Assembly: GCA_028874365.1 (NCBI GenBank)
Contig: JAPPJZ010000056.1
Location: 1-64,000 of the forward strand
Length of the DNA: 64,000 nucleotides
Direction: 5' to 3'
Origin: Chloroflexota bacterium
Lineage (GTDB): Bacteria; Chloroflexota; Dehalococcoidia; Bin125
Position numbers and translations under genes: made by a program. Positions 27,054 through 61,634 of this stretch are shown in pieces; position 1 is the stretch's first letter, and every line of letters begins with the position of its first letter. A model generated the notes under the pieces. That model was not told the origin of the DNA. It made no database searches and worked only from the letters and a program-made list of their open reading frames with translations.

Positions 27054-28277
27054 TCAGTCAACCAGACCCGGATACAGGATCTGCTTGATCTGACCCCGGA
27101 AGTTGAATGTCCCCGACGGCATGAACTGCGTCAGGAAGATCACGATCATCTCCTCCGCCGGGTCGATCCAAAAGATCGTGCTCGCCGCGCCGCCCCAGTA
27201 GTACTCGCCGATCGAGCCCACATTCTGCGTCCGCGGAAGATCAACGATCATCGCAAACCCCAGACCAAACCCCACGCCGTCGTTCGCCGTCTCCGAGAAG
27301 CTGCCCAGCGCCCGCTCCGACAGATCCTGACCGTCCGGCAGATGATTCATCGTCATCAGCTCGATCGTCTTCGGACCCAGCAACCGAGCCCCGTCCAGCT
27401 CGCCCCCGTTCAGCAGCATCTGGCAGAACCGGTGGTAGTCGTGCGCCGTCGATACCAGCCCGCCGCCGCCCGAGAAGAACGTCTGCGGCTCCGCGTAGTG
27501 ACTCGTCGCCGGATCGTCCATCAACCGCAGCCGCCGGTCAGGACCCCGCTCATAGTTGGCCGCGAACCGCTCAATCTTCTCCGCCGGCACATCGAACCCC
27601 GCATCCACCATCCCCAGCGGCGCAAAGACGTGCTCCGCCAGGTACTCGTCGAACCGCTGACCCGAAATCACCTCCACCAGGTACCCGCACACATCCGTCG
27701 ACACCCCATAGTTCCACTGCTCACCCGGCGAGAACTTCAGCGGCATCTCCGCCAGCCGATCGATCATCGACTGCAGGTCCCGTCCCCGCATCGTCCCCGC
27801 CGAGTACACGTCGGCCTGGTTGTAGGCCATCTCCAGCGACCCCTCCATGAACCCGTACGTCAGCCCCGACTGGTGCGACAGCACATCCCGCACCGACATC
27901 GGACGCGCCGGCGGGCAGACATCCGTGACCGGTCCGTCGGGATCGGACATCACCTGCAGATCCCGCCACTGAGGGATGAACCGGCTCACCGGATCCGTCA
28001 GTTGGAACATCCCCCGCTCATGCAGCTGCATCAGCGCCACCGACGTAATCGGCTTCGTCATCGAGTAAAACCGGAAGATCGTATCCGTCGCCATCGGCTT
28101 CCCGCGCTCGCGATCCATGCTTCCCATCGCCGACAGATGTGCAATCTCCCCCCGCCGCGAGATCAGCGTCAGACAACCCGCGATCTTCTCCGGCTCGATG
28201 TACCGAGCCAGCAAGTGCCGGTCCAGCCGAGCCAGCGATTCAATCGAGATGCCGGTATTCCCAACCGTGGTTGCCAT
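27054..28277 (-). CDS. serine hydrolase (class C beta-lactamase-like), copy 1
   Basis: 407 residues. The nucleophile motif is FYSMTKPITSVALMQL with Ser-72 and Lys-75 (SxxK). A Tyr motif (WNYGVSTDVCGYLVEVI) and a C-terminal GLGFAMIVD block follow. No signal peptide is seen, so it is likely cytoplasmic and an esterase or peptidase rather than a resistance enzyme. It is 31 bp from its paralogue at 28309, sharing the same strand. The two are alike along their length. Confidence 0.88.
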   Translation of the reverse strand: MATTVGNTGISIESLARLDRHLLARYIEPEKIAGCLTLISRRGEIAHLSAMGSMDRERGKPMATDTIFRFYSMTKPITSVALMQLHERGMFQLTDPVSRFIPQWRDLQVMSDPDGPVTDVCPPARPMSVRDVLSHQSGLTYGFMEGSLEMAYNQADVYSAGTMRGRDLQSMIDRLAEMPLKFSPGEQWNYGVSTDVCGYLVEVISGQRFDEYLAEHVFAPLGMVDAGFDVPAEKIERFAANYERGPDRRLRLMDDPATSHYAEPQTFFSGGGGLVSTAHDYHRFCQMLLNGGELDGARLLGPKTIELMTMNHLPDGQDLSERALGSFSETANDGVGFGLGFAMIVDLPRTQNVGSIGEYYWGGAASTIFWIDPAEEMIVIFLTQFMPSGTFNFRGQIKQILYPGLVD

Positions 28278-38886: not shown

Positions 38887-39708
38887 CTAGCGGCCCTGGA
38901 AGTTCGGCTCCCGCTTCTCCATGAAGGAGCGGACGCCTTCTTTGAAGTCGTCGGACTGGAAGAGCGGCAGCAGTTGCAGGTAGATGTGGTCGACGGCGGC
39001 CTCGAACGGCTCGTCCATACCCAGGCGCATCATGCGCTTGGTCGCCTGCACCGAGAGCGGGGCGTTGGCGGCGATCTCGTCCGCCAGCTCTAGCGTGCGC
39101 GTCATCAGCTCCTCGTGCGGGACGATCTCGTTGACCAGTCCCACCTCGAGCGATTCCTGCGCGTCGAGCACGCGGCCGCGGAAGGCGACCTCCGCCGCTC
39201 GCGCCCAGCCCAACAGTCGCGGCAGGATCCAGGTGCCGCCCGATTCTGGCAGCACCCCGCGCTTGGCGAACACGGCGCCCATCTTGGCCTGGTCGGAGGC
39301 GACGCGGATGTCGGCCAGCAGGGCCATGTCCATGCCGTAGCCGGCGGCCGCCCCGTTGAGCGCGCAGATCACCGGCTTGTCCATCCGCTGCAGCACGACC
39401 GGCGGCGCGTCGCGCAGGTCGAACAACGAGTAGCCCGGCGCGCCGATGTTGCTCTCGCCGGAGCCCTGCAGCCGCTGCTGCTGATCGACCAGGTCGAGAC
39501 CGGCGCAGAAGCCGCGTCCGGCGCCGGTCAGGACGATCACGCGAATCTCGGGCTCGCGCTGGCAGGCGATCAATTGCGCCGAGAGCGCCTCAAGCATTTC
39601 GCCGGTGATCGCATTCAGTCGTTCCGGGCGGTTGAGCGTGATGATCGCGACGTGTCCACGCTCTTCATAGAGCAGCGTCTCGGTCGCGGGTGCGGTCAAG
39701 GTGGTCAT
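38887..39708 (-). CDS. enoyl-CoA hydratase/isomerase family protein
   Basis: 273 residues of the crotonase fold. It shows HVAIITLNRPERLNAITGEM, GAGRGFCAGLDL and KPVICALNGAAAGYGMDMALLADIRVAS. The oxyanion-hole loops are intact, and the Glu in VLPESGGTWILPRLLGW matches the second catalytic acid. The first acid position is replaced (Asp/Met region of GYGMDMAL), so hydratase activity is not certain. The last part, DFKEGVRSFMEKREPNFQGR, is typical. Probably acts in fatty acyl or aromatic CoA breakdown. Confidence 0.92.
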   Translation of the reverse strand: MTTLTAPATETLLYEERGHVAIITLNRPERLNAITGEMLEALSAQLIACQREPEIRVIVLTGAGRGFCAGLDLVDQQQRLQGSGESNIGAPGYSLFDLRDAPPVVLQRMDKPVICALNGAAAGYGMDMALLADIRVASDQAKMGAVFAKRGVLPESGGTWILPRLLGWARAAEVAFRGRVLDAQESLEVGLVNEIVPHEELMTRTLELADEIAANAPLSVQATKRMMRLGMDEPFEAAVDHIYLQLLPLFQSDDFKEGVRSFMEKREPNFQGR

Positions 39709-39844: not shown

Positions 39845-41356
39845 TCATCGACCGGGCCAGTGGGCCATCTTGCCCCGCGGACCGTTGAGGATCACGATTT
39901 CGGGCCCGGTCGTGGAGCGCGGAACCTGCTGCAGCAGTTCGTGCATGTAGCGGTCTGCATCGAGCAGGTCGTCGTTCCGCTTGCGCGGCTTCGGGTCCGG
40001 GTCGTCTTCGCGCTGCTCCCAGACGTACTCGCTCATGCGCAGCGGAAACTGGCTGAGTTCGGGCATGTAGAAGGAACTGGGCGGGTCCGAGGCGACGCGC
40101 TCGTGGACGAGGTTGACGCCGTAGAGCACCGAGCCGGGGCTGCCGGCGGCGGCCACGACGTCCATGCCCTGGCGTTTCTGGTGGTCGATCCAGGCGGACT
40201 GCGAACGGTCGGCGGCCCAACGGATGCGTCCAAAACGCTGTTGGCATCGGCGCTGCCACTGTTCGAGCCGCTGGATGACGCCGGGACCGCGATCCTCGAA
40301 CTCGGCGAGGCGGATGAGGGTGTAGGCGGGAGGCCCCCCTCTGTCCCTACGGGACATCTCCCCCCGCCTGACGGCGGGGGGAGAGCGGAACAGGCCGGCG
40401 ACGATCCCGGCGGTGTAGTGAGCGGTCTCGGTCTGGCCGCCGAAGTCGAGCCCGCCGATGTAGCGGGTGAAATGCGGCAGCGGTTGCTCCCAACGGTGAC
40501 GGTCGGGCTCGAAGTCGGGGTAGACGCGGCCCATCAGGGCGTCGAAGCGGCCCTCGATGAAGCGCTCGCGCCAGCGCGGCGGCATGAGGGCGTGGTTGAG
40601 TTCGGCGTAGTTGGCGGGCAAATGCGGGTTGTCGGCGATCTTGGCGGGGATGAAGCTGACCTGCCCCCGGGCAGCGTTGAGCGCGTCCTCTGGGAGTTCG
40701 CGGCCCACGAACCAGCGCTGGAACCAGCCCGGCCAGGGGTTCGAGGCGGCCACGAACCAGCGCTGCGCCTGGGCCGGATGGCGCAGCCGGGTGAGCAGCA
40801 TCAGAGCCGCTTCCTCGTCGACCTGTCCGGCCTCATCGATGAGGACCGAGCCGTACTGCTGCGAGCCGAGGCCGGGCCAGTCGGACAGATGGCGGAAGTT
40901 GACCACTGAAGTCTTGCCTGGGGGCCAGGCGGGCAGACGCAGCTCGACCAGTTGGGTCGGGGCCTGCTGGCGTCGCTGGATCAGGTCGGGCGGGCAGACC
41001 TGGAAGAACTCCTTCATCGTGGTGGCTGAGAGGTCGGAGAGATGGTGCCGGGCGACCAGGACGTTGTTGCCGGGAAAGGCGCAGGCGGCGTCGATCGCGA
41101 GTTCGGCGATGGCGCGCGTCTTGCCGCCGCCCATCGCGCCGCCGTAGCCGAGCAGGTTGAGGCGGTCACGACCGCCGGGCAAGGTGAGGCGGTCCGCGTC
41201 CTGATCGATGTCTGGAGCGGGGTAGGGGGCGCTCAGGAGCGCGTCGAAGAGTTCGCGTTGGCGGTCGGTCGGAAAAAAACCGCGCCGCTCGTGCAGCAGC
41301 TCGACAATCGCGAACTGCCGGGTGGTCTGTGGATTAGGGTGGTTCGTCCTCGTCAT
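39845..41356 (-). CDS. phage-type terminase large subunit, solitary
   Basis: 503 residues. The ATPase has Walker A at 71-80 (YGGAMGGGKT), Walker B at 171-176 (VLIDEA) and a coupling motif FVAASNPWPGW near 201. The nuclease (RNase H-like) domain has its first Asp at 304 in YIGGLDFGGQTE and a late acidic pair in RNDDLLDADRYMHEL (461-466). All catalytic parts appear intact. Residues about 324-342 come from an inserted P1 repeat. No capsid, portal, integrase or lysis gene is near, so it is a remnant or a domesticated DNA-packaging motor. It overlaps the small partner gene by 23 nt. Confidence 0.88.
   Translation of the reverse strand: MTRTNHPNPQTTRQFAIVELLHERRGFFPTDRQRELFDALLSAPYPAPDIDQDADRLTLPGGRDRLNLLGYGGAMGGGKTRAIAELAIDAACAFPGNNVLVARHHLSDLSATTMKEFFQVCPPDLIQRRQQAPTQLVELRLPAWPPGKTSVVNFRHLSDWPGLGSQQYGSVLIDEAGQVDEEAALMLLTRLRHPAQAQRWFVAASNPWPGWFQRWFVGRELPEDALNAARGQVSFIPAKIADNPHLPANYAELNHALMPPRWRERFIEGRFDALMGRVYPDFEPDRHRWEQPLPHFTRYIGGLDFGGQTETAHYTAGIVAGLFRSPPAVRRGEMSRRDRGGPPAYTLIRLAEFEDRGPGVIQRLEQWQRRCQQRFGRIRWAADRSQSAWIDHQKRQGMDVVAAAGSPGSVLYGVNLVHERVASDPPSSFYMPELSQFPLRMSEYVWEQREDDPDPKPRKRNDDLLDADRYMHELLQQVPRSTTGPEIVILNGPRGKMAHWPGR
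40331..40387. repeat. palindromic repeat P1 inside the terminase gene (inverted)
   Basis: The inverted P1 palindrome reads gcccccctctgtccctacgg, then gacatct and the stem CCCCCCGCC/GGCGGGGGG. It lies entirely in frame within the terminase and encodes about 19 residues (SPPAVRRGEMSRRDRGG and flanks). The frame and later motifs continue intact. Confidence 0.8.
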
Positions 41357-41738
41357 TGCCGGAGCCTTCCTCTTCTTCCTCTTCTGCTTCCTCGCGCTGC
41401 TTGACGAATTTGGCGAAGCCGCCGAGTTCCTCCTCGGTGGGGTCCGCTCCGTTCTTGAGTTCGGTGATGCGCTCGTAGCCGGTCAACACCTTTTCGGTGG
41501 CCTGGTCGGTGGCCTCGTGGGCGGCGTCGCGGACGGCGTCGCGGGCGGTCTCGAAGGCGAGTTGGGCCTCGTAGCGGGCTTCGGCGTAGAGGCCGGTGAG
41601 TCGGGCGAGGGCCTTGGTCGCGCCGAGTTGGACGTAGGCGGGTCCGTTGGTGGCGTGATGGGCGAGGTGGTTGAGGATGGCGTCTTTGCGCAGCGGCAGC
41701 GGGGGGTTGACCTGCTGGGTGGCGGTGATGACGGTCAT
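41334..41738 (-). CDS. putative terminase small-subunit-like partner
   Basis: 134 residues. The middle is helical and Ala/Glu-rich (YVQLGATKALARLTGLYAEARYEAQLAFETARDAVRDAAHEATDQATEKVLTGY is shown here only by its ends: GATKALARLTGLYAEA and EKVLTGY). The last 25 residues are a run of Glu with Asp (EEAEEEEEEGSGNDEDE). No known small-subunit motif is seen. The call rests on position: it overlaps the terminase start by 23 nt. ATG 41738 follows GGAAGGA. It may instead be an unrelated small protein. Confidence 0.5.
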   Translation of the reverse strand: MTVITATQQVNPPLPLRKDAILNHLAHHATNGPAYVQLGATKALARLTGLYAEARYEAQLAFETARDAVRDAAHEATDQATEKVLTGYERITELKNGADPTEEELGGFAKFVKQREEAEEEEEEGSGNDEDEPP

Positions 41739-41849
41739 GGGTTGGCGTCCTTCCGGGTGCGATTGGCGATTGATCATATACGTACTGGTGTTCGATGTGG
41801 GGATGGCGGGTGTGTCGGAGTTTGCGGAGGATGGGCGAGGGGGAGCAGG

Positions 41850-41868
41850 TCCCCGATCGAGTCCGGGA
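41850..41868. repeat. dispersed palindromic repeat, family P3 (decayed)
   Basis: TCCCCGA, loop TCGAG, TCCGGGA, an imperfect stem. First of four palindromes packed into 41850-42029, before the terminase pair. Confidence 0.55.
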
Positions 41869-41877
41869 ACTGGGGAT

Positions 41878-41931
41878 GCCCCCCTCTGCCTTCGGCATCT
41901 CCCCCCGCCGGAGGCGGGGGGAGAGGGGAAT
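41878..41931. repeat. dispersed palindromic repeat, family P1 (inverted)
   Basis: An inverted P1: gcccccctctgccttcggca followed by the stem CTCCCCCCGCC/GGCGGGGGGAG. It is in the same orientation as the copy inside the terminase, and is about 1.5 kb from it. Confidence 0.85.
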
Positions 41932-41947
41932 GGGGAGTGCGGGATGG

Positions 41948-41968
41948 GCCCCGCATCAAGTGCGGGGC
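41948..41968. repeat. dispersed palindromic repeat, family P3
   Basis: GCCCCGCA (41948-41955), loop TCAAG, TGCGGGGC (41961-41968): a perfect 8-bp stem, with ATGG/CAT flanks also partly paired. Confidence 0.8.
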
Positions 41969-42008
41969 ATCGGAGGGGGAGAGCGGGGCGTCGGTCCCGC
42001 CTCCCGAT

Positions 42009-42090: not shown

Positions 42091-44534
<2,444 letters not shown>

Positions 44535-44538
<4 letters not shown>

Positions 44539-56750: not shown

Positions 56751-58895
56751 ATGGTCGGGGCCACCGAGCGGGCGTCGCACTGGGGATTGGCTGCATGTCT
56801 CGCAGTCGCGGTTGTCGCGGCGCTGAGCGCGCTGGTCGTCTCCGGTCTCTGGGCGTCGCGATCGGCCCTGGCCGAAACGTTTCGTCCGATCGTTCGCGAT
56901 GCCGCGATCAATGGCCCGCTGGACGTGGACTGGTTCGTCCTGTTCGCGCTGGCCGGGGAAACCTATTCGCTGACGCTGGAACGCCACACGCTGCGCGCGG
57001 GTGAGATCACGATCTGGCAGCCTGCGACCGACGGGTCTGAGGCACGGATGGTGGCTCGGGCTCCGGGCTCGCCGCATCCGATGATCTGGACGGCGCCGAG
57101 CAGCGGCGCCTGGCGCGCTCGCGTGTCGGGAGTGAGAGGATCGACCGGTTCCTACCGGCTGCGCATCCAGGGCCATTCCGATGCAGTTGGTGCGGATCTG
57201 CCCACGGCCCAACTGGGCTCCTACGACGCAGCCGGTGTGCTGATCGAGCGATCGCTGATCGACGATCCTGGCGATGTGGACTGGTTCGCCTTCCCGGTGG
57301 CGGCCGAGAATCGATACGAGATCTGGTCGGTGCCGGGCTCCGTGGCGGGCCTCTCGGCGAGCGTGAGAGAGCCGGAAGGCAACGGCTTTGAAGAGGTACA
57401 TACCAAGGGACATGCCTTCAGCGACATCCTCGAGCCGTCCAGGGACGGCCTGGCGGTCATCGCCGTGCGTGGGAGAGAGCCGTGGATGACCGGCAGTTAC
57501 GCGTTTGGCATCACCCGACGGGGATCGGCGCCGGAGCTGGAGTTCGTTCTTCCGGAGCGGGAGCCGTCGAGACTGCTGATCGGGTCGATCGAGGCCGCCG
57601 GATCGCCGGGCCTGGCGGAATTCTCGTTTGCGGGTGAATGGGGTCCGCTGTCGCAGCGCAGCGGACTGCGTGTCTGGATCGATTCCGACCCGGATTCCGA
57701 TGAAGAGGGCGAGTGGGAGTACCTGTTGCGCTCGCTGGACGGGCGGAACTGGCGACTGTGGTCATTCGAGGGCCGCGAGTGGATTGCGCGTGGCTACGTG
57801 TCGGCTGATGGGTTCGACACGCTAGTGATGGGTTGGAGCGGCCGCACGGCCGATGAGCGGATTCGCTGGCAGGCGAGCGTGAAGAACTCGGACGGTACCT
57901 GGACGTTGTCCAGACCGCAGTGGTTGGACGTTCCGCATCCGCGGCCGGCGCTGCCGCCGCTGTGGGCCGCACGCGAACGGACGGGAGCGGAGGACCCGCG
58001 CTATCACGCGGAACTGAGGGCGGCGGGCGTCGTCGAGGAGGTGCCGGACGACGCGCTGGTGGTGGTGCTGGACCCGGGGCACGGCGTAGATACGGGCGCC
58101 TGGGACAACGGGGTCTTGGAGGCTGAGTCGAACCTGAGGTTCGCGCTCCGAATCGAGGAGCTGTTGGAGGCCAACGGTGTGTACGTGGCGCTGACGCGAC
58201 GTTCCTCCGGACGCCCGTACCTGAATCTCGATGAGGCGCTGTGGAGACCGGACTACCAGGCCCGCGCGGAGTTGGCGCATCGGGCCAACGCCGATCTGTT
58301 CGTCTCGATTCACTCCAACGCCAACTTCCGCCTGCCGATCAACGGTCTCGAGGCGTGGTATCTGCCTCGCTGGCACGGGGACGAAGCGAACCTTCGCCTC
58401 TCTGAGCTGCTGCTCGACCATGTGCAGCGCGGCCTGGCGGAGTACGGCTATCCAACCTCGACACTGGTCTACGACTCGACTTGCTGGGAGCTCGTCAACA
58501 ACGTCTGCGATCCGATCTACGTGCTGGCGCCGTTCCTGCAGGTCGACGCGGATGCCGCGCGTCGTTGGGGCTACGAACCGGCCGAGCTCGGGCTGTCTGA
58601 GGATCCCTTTGCACCGGCCGTCAACCATTGGCTGTGGCAGAACGACATCACGGTCGGGGAGCCGCCGATCGATCTGATCGATCCGGACACGCAGTCCGGA
58701 CCGGGGAAGATCATTCGCGGCAACCTGATGCCGACCGTGTTGTTGGAGCTGCTGTACGTGACCCACGAAGGGGACGCGCGAATCCTGCGAGATCCGGCGG
58801 CCCGCGAGGTCATCGCCCAGGCGATTGCGGACGGAATTCTGGAGTTTCTCGGCGTGGAGTTGGCAGCGTGCGAAGGGTCGTTGTGTCGCGGTTGA
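56751..58895 (+). CDS. secreted N-acetylmuramoyl-L-alanine amidase (Amidase_3) with PPC-like repeats
   Basis: 714 residues. A signal or anchor segment (GLAACLAVAVVAALSALVV) is followed by two PPC-like domains with the same DVDWF motif (GPLDVDWFVLFALAGETYSL near 60 and DDPGDVDWFAFPVAAENRYEI near 175). A third beta-rich segment follows (near 270-410). The C-terminal Amidase_3 domain has VVLDPGHGVDTG (zinc His), LEAESNLRFALRI (Glu), LFVSIHSNANF (His) and a late catalytic Glu in TVLLELLYVTHEGDA. It should cleave peptidoglycan stems outside. GTG 56748 directly precedes ATG 56751. Confidence 0.88.
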   Translation: MVGATERASHWGLAACLAVAVVAALSALVVSGLWASRSALAETFRPIVRDAAINGPLDVDWFVLFALAGETYSLTLERHTLRAGEITIWQPATDGSEARMVARAPGSPHPMIWTAPSSGAWRARVSGVRGSTGSYRLRIQGHSDAVGADLPTAQLGSYDAAGVLIERSLIDDPGDVDWFAFPVAAENRYEIWSVPGSVAGLSASVREPEGNGFEEVHTKGHAFSDILEPSRDGLAVIAVRGREPWMTGSYAFGITRRGSAPELEFVLPEREPSRLLIGSIEAAGSPGLAEFSFAGEWGPLSQRSGLRVWIDSDPDSDEEGEWEYLLRSLDGRNWRLWSFEGREWIARGYVSADGFDTLVMGWSGRTADERIRWQASVKNSDGTWTLSRPQWLDVPHPRPALPPLWAARERTGAEDPRYHAELRAAGVVEEVPDDALVVVLDPGHGVDTGAWDNGVLEAESNLRFALRIEELLEANGVYVALTRRSSGRPYLNLDEALWRPDYQARAELAHRANADLFVSIHSNANFRLPINGLEAWYLPRWHGDEANLRLSELLLDHVQRGLAEYGYPTSTLVYDSTCWELVNNVCDPIYVLAPFLQVDADAARRWGYEPAELGLSEDPFAPAVNHWLWQNDITVGEPPIDLIDPDTQSGPGKIIRGNLMPTVLLELLYVTHEGDARILRDPAAREVIAQAIADGILEFLGVELAACEGSLCRG

Positions 58896-59082
58896 CTCAG
58901 ATCGTGTAGTGGGTTGTGCGGAGTCAGTCGTTGCGGTCGTTGTGACACAGGTTGTGTGTGCTGCGTGGAACTTGTGATTCGGACCACAACACGGAGTATC
59001 CGCGCTCGGGCATACGGTCGGTTCCAGGCAGAGGCACGCGGTGTGCTTCACCACCCCAGAGGACAACCGGGAGGTAGATGAC

Positions 59083-59580
59083 ATGACCCGCACGAGCATG
59101 ACCGGGGCGAGCGCCGTGACACCGGTTCCTGACGTGGCCGACGCGCTGGTTGATCAGCAGAAGATCTTTCCCTACCTGACGTACTCCGACGCGCCGGCGG
59201 CGATCGAATGGCTCTGCCGCGTGTTCGGGTTCGAGTTGGCGAACTCCTACACCGTGGCGGACGGTCGGATCGCTCACGCCGCGCTGTGCCATGAGGGCCT
59301 GTACGTGATGCTCTCGTCGGAGATGGAGCAGCTCGGCAATTGCGCTCCGGACGGTGAGGCGCGGCCGACCTCGCGGGTTCACATCCATGTACGTGATGTC
59401 GAGGCGCACTACGAGCGCGCTCTGCTCGAGGGCGCGACGATTGTCCAGGGGATGCAGGACCACTTCTGGGGTCTGCGGTCGTACCACGCGCTGGATTCGG
59501 AGGGTTACCGCTGGAGTTTCTGTCAGCGCGTGCGCGAAGTCCCACGCGAGGTGGTCGAGCGTCAGCTGTCGGCCTGGTAG
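59083..59580 (+). CDS. VOC-family (glyoxalase/PhnB-like) protein, tandem copy 1
   Basis: 165 residues. A 30-residue N-terminal extension precedes the VOC core (IFPYLTYSDAPAAIEWLCRVFGFELANSY, ending SYHALDSEGYRWSF). The fold is a paired beta-alpha-beta-beta-beta with metal ligands; here the ligand residues are partly changed (HVRDVEAHYERALLEGA, HFWGLRSYHALDSEG). GGGAGG precedes ATG 59083. It is the most divergent of five tandem paralogues. No resistance or dioxygenase activity can be claimed. Confidence 0.82.
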   Translation: MTRTSMTGASAVTPVPDVADALVDQQKIFPYLTYSDAPAAIEWLCRVFGFELANSYTVADGRIAHAALCHEGLYVMLSSEMEQLGNCAPDGEARPTSRVHIHVRDVEAHYERALLEGATIVQGMQDHFWGLRSYHALDSEGYRWSFCQRVREVPREVVERQLSAW

Positions 59581-59606
59581 CCGAACCGCCGCGCGATATG
59601 TCACGT

Positions 59607-59627
59607 CGCCCCGCGCTACGCGGGGCG
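59607..59627. terminator. hairpin between VOC copies 1 and 2
   Basis: CGCCCCGCG (59607-59615), loop CTA, CGCGGGGCG (59619-59627): a perfect 9-bp stem. An outer GATATG (59595-59600) and CATATC (59633-59638) also pair. It probably ends the first transcript, so copies 2-5 may have their own promoter. Confidence 0.6.
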
Positions 59628-59700
59628 GCTTGCATATCAGAACATATATGCGCTAACGTCGAACTCGTGCGCGATTGATGGAGTGAGGGAGCTGAGCGAG

Positions 59701-60165
59701 ATGTCGGATGCCGTCGAACTGGAACACCAACGGATCGTTCCCTACCTGACCTATGCCGACGCACCGACGGCGATCGACTGGCTCTGCCGGGTGTTTGGAT
59801 TCAACGAAGTCCGGCGCATGGAGACCGGCGATGGCCGGATCGGTCACGCGGCGCTGAGTTTCATGGGCGAACAGGTCATGATCTCGTCGGCCTTCGACGA
59901 GGCCGGCACCAGGTCGCCTCGCGATCTGCCCGGTCTGCACCAGCAGATCACGGTGTACGTCGACGGTGTCGATGCCCATTTTGCTCACGCTCAGACGGAG
60001 GGCGCGGCCATACTGTCGGAGCCTGAGGACCAGTTCTGGGGCGACCGCACGTATTGGGTGCAGGACCTGGAAGGGCACCGTTGGACCTTCCAGCAACATC
60101 TGCGCGTCGTGCCTGACGAGGAGTCGGCGGCGGCGATGCGGAGGATTGCGAGCGAACGAGAGTAG
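59701..60165 (+). CDS. VOC-family protein, tandem copy 2
   Basis: 154 residues. RIVPYLTYADAPTAIDWLCRVFGFNEVRRM starts the fold, and DQFWGDRTYWVQDLEGHRWTFQQHL is the shared C-terminal signature. ATG 59701 follows GAGGGAG eight bases upstream; a GTG at 59683 overlaps that site and is rejected. Expected product is a small dimeric metal-binding protein; substrate unknown. The promoter may lie after the 59607 hairpin. Confidence 0.85.
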   Translation: MSDAVELEHQRIVPYLTYADAPTAIDWLCRVFGFNEVRRMETGDGRIGHAALSFMGEQVMISSAFDEAGTRSPRDLPGLHQQITVYVDGVDAHFAHAQTEGAAILSEPEDQFWGDRTYWVQDLEGHRWTFQQHLRVVPDEESAAAMRRIASERE

Positions 60166-60217
60166 GCGCGCTCGGCTCTGGGCGTGCTGCGACGTATTGG
60201 AACGAGAGGACGGAATC

Positions 60218-60679
60218 ATGGTTCAGAATCCACCAGAGGGCAATCAGCGGGTGATCCCGTACTTGTCCTACGCCGATGCGCCGGCGGCAATCGAGTTTCT
60301 CTGCGGTGCGTACGGTTTCGAAGCCGGGACGCAGATGGATATGGGCAACGGCGTGCTCGGGCACGCTGAACTGCATCTGCAGGACAATGTGGTCTTCCTC
60401 GCCACCGCCTTCGATGAGATGGGCCTCGCCAGCCCCCGCAGCCTGAGCGCTGTGCACGGGCAGGTGATGGTCTATGTGGACGACGTCGACGACCACTACG
60501 AACACGCCAGGGCGGCTGGCGCCGAGATCGTTGAGGAGATCGCCGATCAGTTCTATGGCGACCGCAGCTATCGCACCGTCGATCCTGAGGGGCACCAGTG
60601 GATCTTCACGCAGCACATCCGCGATGTCACTCCGGAGGAGCTGATGGCGGCCGTGGAGCAGATGAGCGACGGAGCGTGA
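60218..60679 (+). CDS. VOC-family protein, tandem copy 3
   Basis: 153 residues. RVIPYLSYADAPAAIEFLCGAYGFEAGTQM starts the fold, and DQFYGDRSYRTVDPEGHQWIFTQHI ends it. The frame is open from 59966, but only the ATG at 60218 begins at the family start and follows GAGAGGACG. It lies 52 bp after copy 2 and 4 bp before copy 4. Closest to copy 4 by eye. Confidence 0.85.
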   Translation: MVQNPPEGNQRVIPYLSYADAPAAIEFLCGAYGFEAGTQMDMGNGVLGHAELHLQDNVVFLATAFDEMGLASPRSLSAVHGQVMVYVDDVDDHYEHARAAGAEIVEEIADQFYGDRSYRTVDPEGHQWIFTQHIRDVTPEELMAAVEQMSDGA

Positions 60680-60683
60680 CGAG

Positions 60684-61151
60684 ATGACGGAGCAACAGGA
60701 CCTCGCAGCCGGCCGTAGACAACGGATCGTGCCGGCGCTGTCGTACGACGACGCGCCGGCGATGATCGAGTTCCTCTGCCGTGCGTTCGGCTTCGTCGAA
60801 CGATTCCGGCTCAACATGCCGGACGGCAGTATTGGCCATGCCTCGCTGCTCAGTGACGAGGATGAGGTGACCCTGGCGTCGGCCTTCCCGGAGGGCGGAC
60901 TTGGCGGGCCGAGCGGGCTGCCTCACCTGCACGCCAGCGTGATGGTCTACGTCGACGATGTCGACGCGCACTACGCTCGCGCCGTCGCTGAGGGCGCGAC
61001 GATCCTGCAAGAGCCGGAGGACCAGTTCTTCGGCGACCGGACCTATCGGGCAGAGGACCCGGAGGGCGGGCGCTGGTGGTTCCATCAGGAGCTACAGAAG
61101 TTCACGGGCGACGAGGTGCAAGCCACGATCGACGCGATGTCGGAGGAGTAG
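60684..61151 (+). CDS. VOC-family protein, tandem copy 4
   Basis: 155 residues. RIVPALSYDDAPAMIEFLCRAFGFVERFRL starts the fold and DQFFGDRTYRAEDPEGGRWWFHQEL ends it. Its ATG follows the copy 3 stop by 4 bp. The middle is DDVDAHYARAVAEGATILQEPED, as in copy 2. Substrate unknown. Likely co-translated with copy 3. Confidence 0.85.
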   Translation: MTEQQDLAAGRRQRIVPALSYDDAPAMIEFLCRAFGFVERFRLNMPDGSIGHASLLSDEDEVTLASAFPEGGLGGPSGLPHLHASVMVYVDDVDAHYARAVAEGATILQEPEDQFFGDRTYRAEDPEGGRWWFHQELQKFTGDEVQATIDAMSEE

Positions 61152-61163
61152 CTGGCAGCGGAT

Positions 61164-61634
61164 ATGGCTGACGTCCCACTGCCTGGGGGATCGCAACACA
61201 TTGCGCCCTACGTGTACTACGACGACCCGCGCGCGGCGACGGCGTTCCTATGTGAAGTGTTCGGCTTTGAGCAGACGATGCTGCTGGAATGGCCCGATGG
61301 CGCCGTGGCGCACGCGGAGGTCTCGCTCAATGGCGAGCGGGTGTTGATTGGATATGCGGATCCGAGCTTTGGTCTGAGCACCCCACGAACACTCGGAGCC
61401 CAGCACACGGTGCTTTGTGTGTACGTCTCCGATGTCGACGCCCACTGCGAACAAGCGACGAAGGCCGGGGCGGAGATCGTCCGTCCGCTGGCTGACCAGT
61501 TCTACGGTTCGAGGGCGTACACGGCGCGCGATTGCGAGGGCACGCTCTGGGAGTTTCGCCAGCATCTGCGCGAGCCGTCGCATGAGGAGTTGACGGAGTC
61601 GCTCGCGAACCTGGCGCGGCTGATTGGTCGTTAG
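61164..61634 (+). CDS. VOC-family protein, tandem copy 5
   Basis: 156 residues. HIAPYVYYDDPRAATAFLCEVFGFEQTMLL starts the fold and DQFYGSRAYTARDCEGTLWEFRQHL ends it. The DAP of other copies is DPR here. It converges on the PPOX gene at 61646 with 11 bp between stops, too little for a separate terminator. Confidence 0.85.
   Translation: MADVPLPGGSQHIAPYVYYDDPRAATAFLCEVFGFEQTMLLEWPDGAVAHAEVSLNGERVLIGYADPSFGLSTPRTLGAQHTVLCVYVSDVDAHCEQATKAGAEIVRPLADQFYGSRAYTARDCEGTLWEFRQHLREPSHEELTESLANLARLIGR

Follow-up and report, generated by a model that had tools for sequence, protein, structure and literature searches.

As far as we know, terminases are thought to be useful only together with a capsid. The window, i.e. 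the whole stretch of 64 kb analysed here, raises the question of whether one can also be kept without it, and for what: it carries a terminase pair whose neighbours are all of the housekeeping type. The window is contig C59 of a Chloroflexota draft genome of 3.1 Mb that comprises 82 contigs and is 96% complete. We followed its terminase through a sample of 100 relatives, with 15 members of the genus; the related loci were drawn from MAGs. All genomes are drafts, and because contigs break at repeats, the copy numbers of terS and terL given in the following are lower bounds.

An intact terminase pair among housekeeping genes

The pair occupies the following site.

38887–39708, minus strand: enoyl-CoA hydratase gene, downstream flank of a site shared between species
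39845–41356, minus strand: terL, terminase large subunit with ATPase and RNase H-like nuclease, 503 aa (Pfam, PHROG and PDB matches, motifs)
41334–41738, minus strand: terS-like small partner, 134 aa from ATG 41738, with an acidic C-terminus (alignment A1, position relative to terL)
42091–44538, minus strand: clpC-type ATPase gene, upstream flank of the shared site; the clpC–hydratase adjacency is conserved

Judged by its motifs and its modelled fold, the window TerL is a member of the phage terminase large subunit family. With Pfam Terminase_3 it scores above the cut-off (24.8 bits), and it further matches PHROG_2, the terminase large subunit (E 1.2e-25), and, by sequence, the solved D6E terminase. 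Its structure model is of low confidence (mean pLDDT 58.5), yet the best Foldseek matches are still terminases, namely those of D6E, Sf6, P74-26, T4 and HK97. The protein retains Walker A (GGAMGGGKT, residues 72–80), Walker B (VLIDEAG, residues 171–177), the coupling motif (ASNP, residues 204–207) and the nuclease acids (D304, D383 and D462/463/466/468), and every catalytic motif is invariant in an alignment of 28 copies.

In most copies, a terS-like gene overlaps or adjoins terL; the two are divergently arranged in G009, G011 and the type-C copies of G000 and G001. The window terS has its likely start at ATG 41738, within an open frame that begins at 41777, with a ribosome site (GGAAGGA) at 41748–41754, and its stop overlaps the start of terL. 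Pfam and PHROG searches yielded no family match for the small subunit; the name ‘terS’ is given for its position beside terL and for the mutual similarity of the copies.

An earlier note on this DNA had described the pair as intact and free of phage genes nearby. The complete set of TerL motifs and the overlapping small partner bear out the former, and as to the latter, no portal, capsid, tail or integrase gene was recognised within the 64-kb window. Among the remaining window genes, the PHROG matches point to cellular proteins; a ‘minor tail’ match at 27054–28118 and an ‘endolysin’ match at 56751–58895 each concern a single gene, which we read as encoding a serine-hydrolase-like and a multidomain protein, respectively. 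Elsewhere in the window, at 59041–61634, five small look-alike ORFs of 153–179 aa, probably glyoxalase/VOC-like, stand in tandem.

Vertical maintenance of terL within one genus

The pair is not isolated, as it had first appeared to be. The host genome holds three full terL genes (the window copy and those on C14 and C18) and partial copies on C17 and C21, besides many dispersed terS copies with LexA boxes. Among the 100 relatives searched, terL is present in 14 of the 15 genus members, with one to three full copies per genome, and a search with the phrog_2 profile gives the same tally (14/15). Outside the genus, it was found in one member of a sister genus, while the rest of the class gave two weak matches alone. 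In one species, G012, neither terL nor terS was detected, and its radical-SAM site carries a remnant of the terL 5′ end without terS.

The dN/dS of terL among these relatives is mostly 0.1–0.2 (core dN/dS 0.02–0.33, one exceptional pair at 0.60), and that of the window gene against its same-site orthologs in G009, G011 and G013 is 0.17–0.19, which indicates purifying selection. Three other species have terL at the orthologous place, flanked by clpC and the enoyl-CoA hydratase gene. The type-A TerL tree broadly tracks the species tree, though the genomic sites differ, and paralogous terL genes within one genome have their C-terminal ends in common. Selection and synteny were two of the checks that the earlier note had proposed for its reading of domestication over decay; together with terL in 14 of 15 species and its invariant catalytic residues, both speak for domestication or long maintenance. 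As a separate observation, the two TerL paralogs L033 and L050 of G013 are near-identical in protein (dN 0.008) yet have a dS of 0.35; for two copies in the same genome, this ratio is very low.

Dispersed terS copies at recurring sites

While terL genes are few, terS-like genes are many, with about seven or more in the host genome. Searched with a profile made from 13 small subunits (A1), 12 of the 15 genomes give matches, up to 27 in a single genome, of which the weakest are doubtful; as A1 was built mostly from type-A-linked copies, these counts lean towards genomes that have type-A terL. In the loci fetched, 64 terS genes were called, and about 45 of these stand without terL. These copies sit intergenically amid unrelated housekeeping genes, and the same sites are reused across species: clpC/enoyl-CoA hydratase, GGT/PhyH-type, purC, radical SAM, glutamine synthetase, CoA-transferase, ABC transporter, PHP and rarA-type, as named from their protein sequences, mostly without a profile test. 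At a single site, the orientation or subtype of terS sometimes varies by species. For instance, the clpC/hydratase gap is short and empty in seven species (G002, G003, G004, G007, G008, G010 and G012), holds terS alone in two and divergent terS and terL in two others, and carries terS–terL in the window; in a further species, terL stands at the start of a contig, and the remaining contig is cut.

Most terS frames are open, and some of the G011 copies are frameshifted. In close pairs, terS dN/dS ranges from 0.07 to 1.1, i.e. selection is weak to moderate; we discarded the all-pair values (median 1.17) for saturation and misaligned acidic tails. The 10 genomes that have type-A terL show higher terS counts than the 5 that lack it (Mann–Whitney p 0.002, uncorrected for kinship), and with a profile that leans towards type-A copies, this link between type-A terL and terS number is suggestive only.

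Predicted SOS control and a T-run beside terS

Two short elements accompany most terS genes. Their window copies are:

41782–41793, minus strand: probable LexA (SOS) box GAACACCAGTAC in the terS promoter, one mismatch to GAACN4GTTC
41271–41281, minus strand: T-run site GGTTTTTTTCC, the sole run of at least six T or A in the window, inside terL codons 26–28

The motif GAACN4GTNC occurs within 150 bp upstream of 40 of the 59 terS genes, against 9 of 541 other genes (Fisher p 5e-39), and the sister-genus copy also has a perfect box. Of the 14 lexA loci of the genus, 9 have its perfect form, GAACN4GTTC, upstream of the LexA-domain match; this form agrees with the Gram-positive LexA motif (PMC3323433, PMC2248561). 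The element before terS is thus most likely a LexA box, and since a perfect box precedes lexA itself, we predict that terS is under DNA-damage (SOS) control.

The second element, a T-run of six or more (GTTTTTTC type), lies less than 150 bp downstream of the stop in 44 of 59 terS genes and in none of 541 other genes. The next base after the run is C in every case, and the base before it is usually G. The 958 kb scanned hold only 74 runs of at least six T or A, of which 57 are less than 200 bp from terS or terL. We considered an intrinsic terminator and rejected it: no hairpin abuts the run, and folding energies equal those of shuffled sequences.

Copying of a defined unit within genomes

The promoter and terS belong to a larger repeat, and further repeats lie within terL itself.

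41184–41980, minus strand: dispersed repeat unit comprising upstream repeats, LexA box, terS and the first 58–62 terL codons, 97% identical to the C17 copy
41150–41197, minus strand: duplicated junction DRLTLP-GGR-DRLNL, at the join of repeat unit and terL body
40328–40390, minus strand: in-frame dispersed palindromic repeat inside terL, PPAVRRGEMSRRDRGGPP, at a loop of TerL that holds different inserts in many type-A copies

The window unit and the C17 copy are 97% identical over 798 bp between unrelated flanks, and the C17 copy lacks the terL body. Among recent within-genome copies, the common unit mostly starts 70–115 bp before terS and ends either at the terS stop or at about terL codon 58–62. 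These common boundaries, together with the unrelated flanks of the window and C17 copies, show copying or conversion of a defined unit, consisting of the LexA-box promoter and terS, sometimes with the terL 5′ end. The duplicated junction is common to the G002:C22 copy and not found in the G009/G011 orthologs. No transposase lies in the unit, and neither target-site duplications nor terminal inverted repeats could be established for the cassettes; at the clpC–hydratase and radical-SAM sites, intergenic divergence is too great to reveal target-site duplications. Ordinary recombination by RecA among the repeats could account for the copying.

Two palindromes recur in and around these genes. The first (CTCCCCCCGCC..GGCGGGGGGAGATG..) is found at 40328–40390 and 41873–41930 as well as in L007, L008 and other loci; it lies in frame inside terL and apparently also inside some terS genes. 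The second, GATGCCCCGCACTTGATGCGGGGCCC, is dispersed between genes (41938–41967, 42010 and 32090), and the 798-bp unit common to C59 and C17 has one of these copies at its left edge.

Head genes and phage relatives

If the terminase still packaged DNA into heads of its own, portal and capsid genes would be expected elsewhere in the genome, and the earlier note had named a gene transfer agent as one possible form of domestication. Profile searches found neither the portal phrog_12 nor the HK97 capsid PF05065 in any of the 13 good genomes, and PF04860 is absent from the host genome. The sole phrog_12/PF05065 match pair comes from a phage-like contig in a fragmented genome (G003:C209; L106/L201), which carries a portal, a protease-like gene and a capsid; another phage-like contig of that genome (G003:C107; L156) carries an unrelated TerL.

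A single-sequence search gave no close relative of the window TerL among viral contigs, and the best matches in phage records are 24–30% identical over less than half of the protein. Using the TerL alignment, four distant viral contigs were matched, the best of which (L217, L218 and L219) encode TerL proteins 39–43% identical to those of the genus. In these related viral contigs, terS–terL is followed by a gene at the portal position that encodes a protein of 550–730 aa. This protein matches no PHROG or Pfam family, and its profile (A3) gave no significant match in the genus (lowest E 0.06; none in the 13 good genomes).

Nor do the inspected terL sites look like prophages: no integrase, head, tail or lysis genes were seen around terL. 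With phrog_12, PF05065 and the portal-position protein all absent from the 13 good genomes, the proposal of a gene transfer agent is unsupported, though a capsid of an unknown family may be present.

Discussion

The observations made here concern the genes present and their conservation, the LexA boxes and T-run sites, the boundaries of the cassettes and the lack of recognisable head genes. We tentatively suggest that they are best explained by a capsid-less, phage-derived, SOS-controlled terminase that is kept vertically in one Chloroflexota genus, with terS cassettes that spread or undergo conversion inside the genome. A few motor genes (one to three terL) would serve many dispersed terS cassettes. 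On DNA damage, the loss of LexA would release TerS from many places and TerL from few; TerS rings may bind sequence beside their own genes, with the T-run region as a candidate site; bound TerS would recruit TerL, whose ATPase and nuclease might cut or reel the chromosome there; and repair of the break from another cassette would copy the promoter and terS, sometimes with terL ends, between sites. Such cassette-templated repair would account for the within-genome homogenisation and for the spread of terS in genomes with type-A terL. In its full form, this amounts to an intragenomic selfish element of a new class, a virus-less terminase that homes SOS-induced terS cassettes via T-run cutting and repair from another copy, which we consider possible but doubtful.

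The strongest rival, in our view unlikely, is a head-borrowing satellite or an unrecognised packaging system akin to gene transfer agents. Each terS cassette, with the site beside it, would mark chromosomal DNA; TerS and TerL made under SOS control would load cassette-flanking DNA into the capsids of co-resident phages or into an undetectably divergent particle, and the cassettes would move between cells by homologous recombination of their flanks, without an integrase. The predicted SOS control, the position of terS beside a conserved site, the many chromosomal positions, the sites common to several species and the lack of an integrase near terL would all fit, as would the phage relatives in which terS–terL precedes a portal-position gene. 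However, the 13 good genomes hold no portal, HK97 capsid or relative of the cognate portal-position protein, the identity of the clpC-site flanks looks, by inspection, like ordinary species divergence, and within-genome copying of the unit alone is not explained by flank transfer.

Slightly less likely still, the terminase may serve the host, either recruited for the processing of damaged DNA or supplying, upon damage or phage attack, TerS/TerL decoy subunits that hinder the packaging of incoming phages. Vertical retention of terL in 14 of 15 species under strong purifying selection, the predicted SOS control and a diversified terS set per genome are consistent with such a role, but terS numbers vary widely (0–27 matches) and G012 appears to have neither gene, unlike a core repair gene, and no phages with a close TerL are known (24–30% identity in phage records, 39–43% in viral contigs). 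A known defence system was rejected, as a PADLOC search gave no match.

That the genes are passive leftovers from the decay of one or several prophages, with chance duplication as the only cause of their number, is improbable. The terL remnant in G012 and the frameshifted terS copies in G011 are what this would produce, yet purifying selection on terL in many lineages contradicts decay, as do the invariant catalytic residues and mostly open terS frames; moreover, most terS copies have a LexA box and a T-run, and the inspected terL sites hold no other phage genes. An assembly or binning artefact, which an 82-contig draft with several contigs ending at terS copies might suggest, can practically be dismissed, given the same families at the same insertion sites in many separate genomes and the contig breaks to be expected from near-identical repeats.

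If a whole genus indeed keeps a terminase without a capsid, under predicted DNA-damage control and with numerous scattered small-subunit cassettes, then packaging motors can be retained for another purpose. The cassettes and T-run sites offer a direct handle on the action of TerL on chromosomal DNA. The system looks like an undescribed domesticated or self-spreading genetic element, as judged from general knowledge and limited open-access literature. That literature, with subscription journals outside its scope, gave no account of a domesticated terminase, and the titles and abstracts of open-access work on sponges, Chloroflexota and terminases mention nothing of this system.

Comparison with known systems

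With the tailed-phage terminase (TerS–TerL; D6E-type, PHROG_2), the genus terminase shares the ATPase and nuclease motifs and the overlapping terS–terL order, but its genome has no recognised head genes, terS is multiplied and set apart from terL, and most copies have a LexA box. Gene transfer agents such as RcGTA and CcGTA also keep a phage-derived terminase vertically in chromosomes, and the genus terminase resembles them in being phage-derived, vertically kept and chromosomal; it differs in that no portal/capsid cluster was found and terS is dispersed.

Phage-inducible chromosomal islands (PICIs) and satellites carry their own TerS. SaPI is an example of such a TerS-carrying satellite (PMC12409344). 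Like PICI-type satellites, the genus system has TerS without a full set of head genes and a link to SOS, whereas its cassette is a unit of about 0.5–0.8 kb and it keeps its own TerL; in neighbourhoods read by eye, no integrase, replication or capsid-redirection genes were seen beside the terS cassettes, which sets them apart from PICIs.

Finally, REPIN/RAYT systems combine one RAYT (HUH) transposase acting in trans with REP hairpins. REPIN populations consist of many short dispersed copies that persist vertically (PMC8049555). The likeness, in the economy of copy number alone, lies in few catalytic genes, many short dispersed copies and long vertical persistence; in the system described here, by contrast, no REP-like hairpin ends were defined, the enzyme is a terminase, and the units encode a protein and carry LexA boxes.
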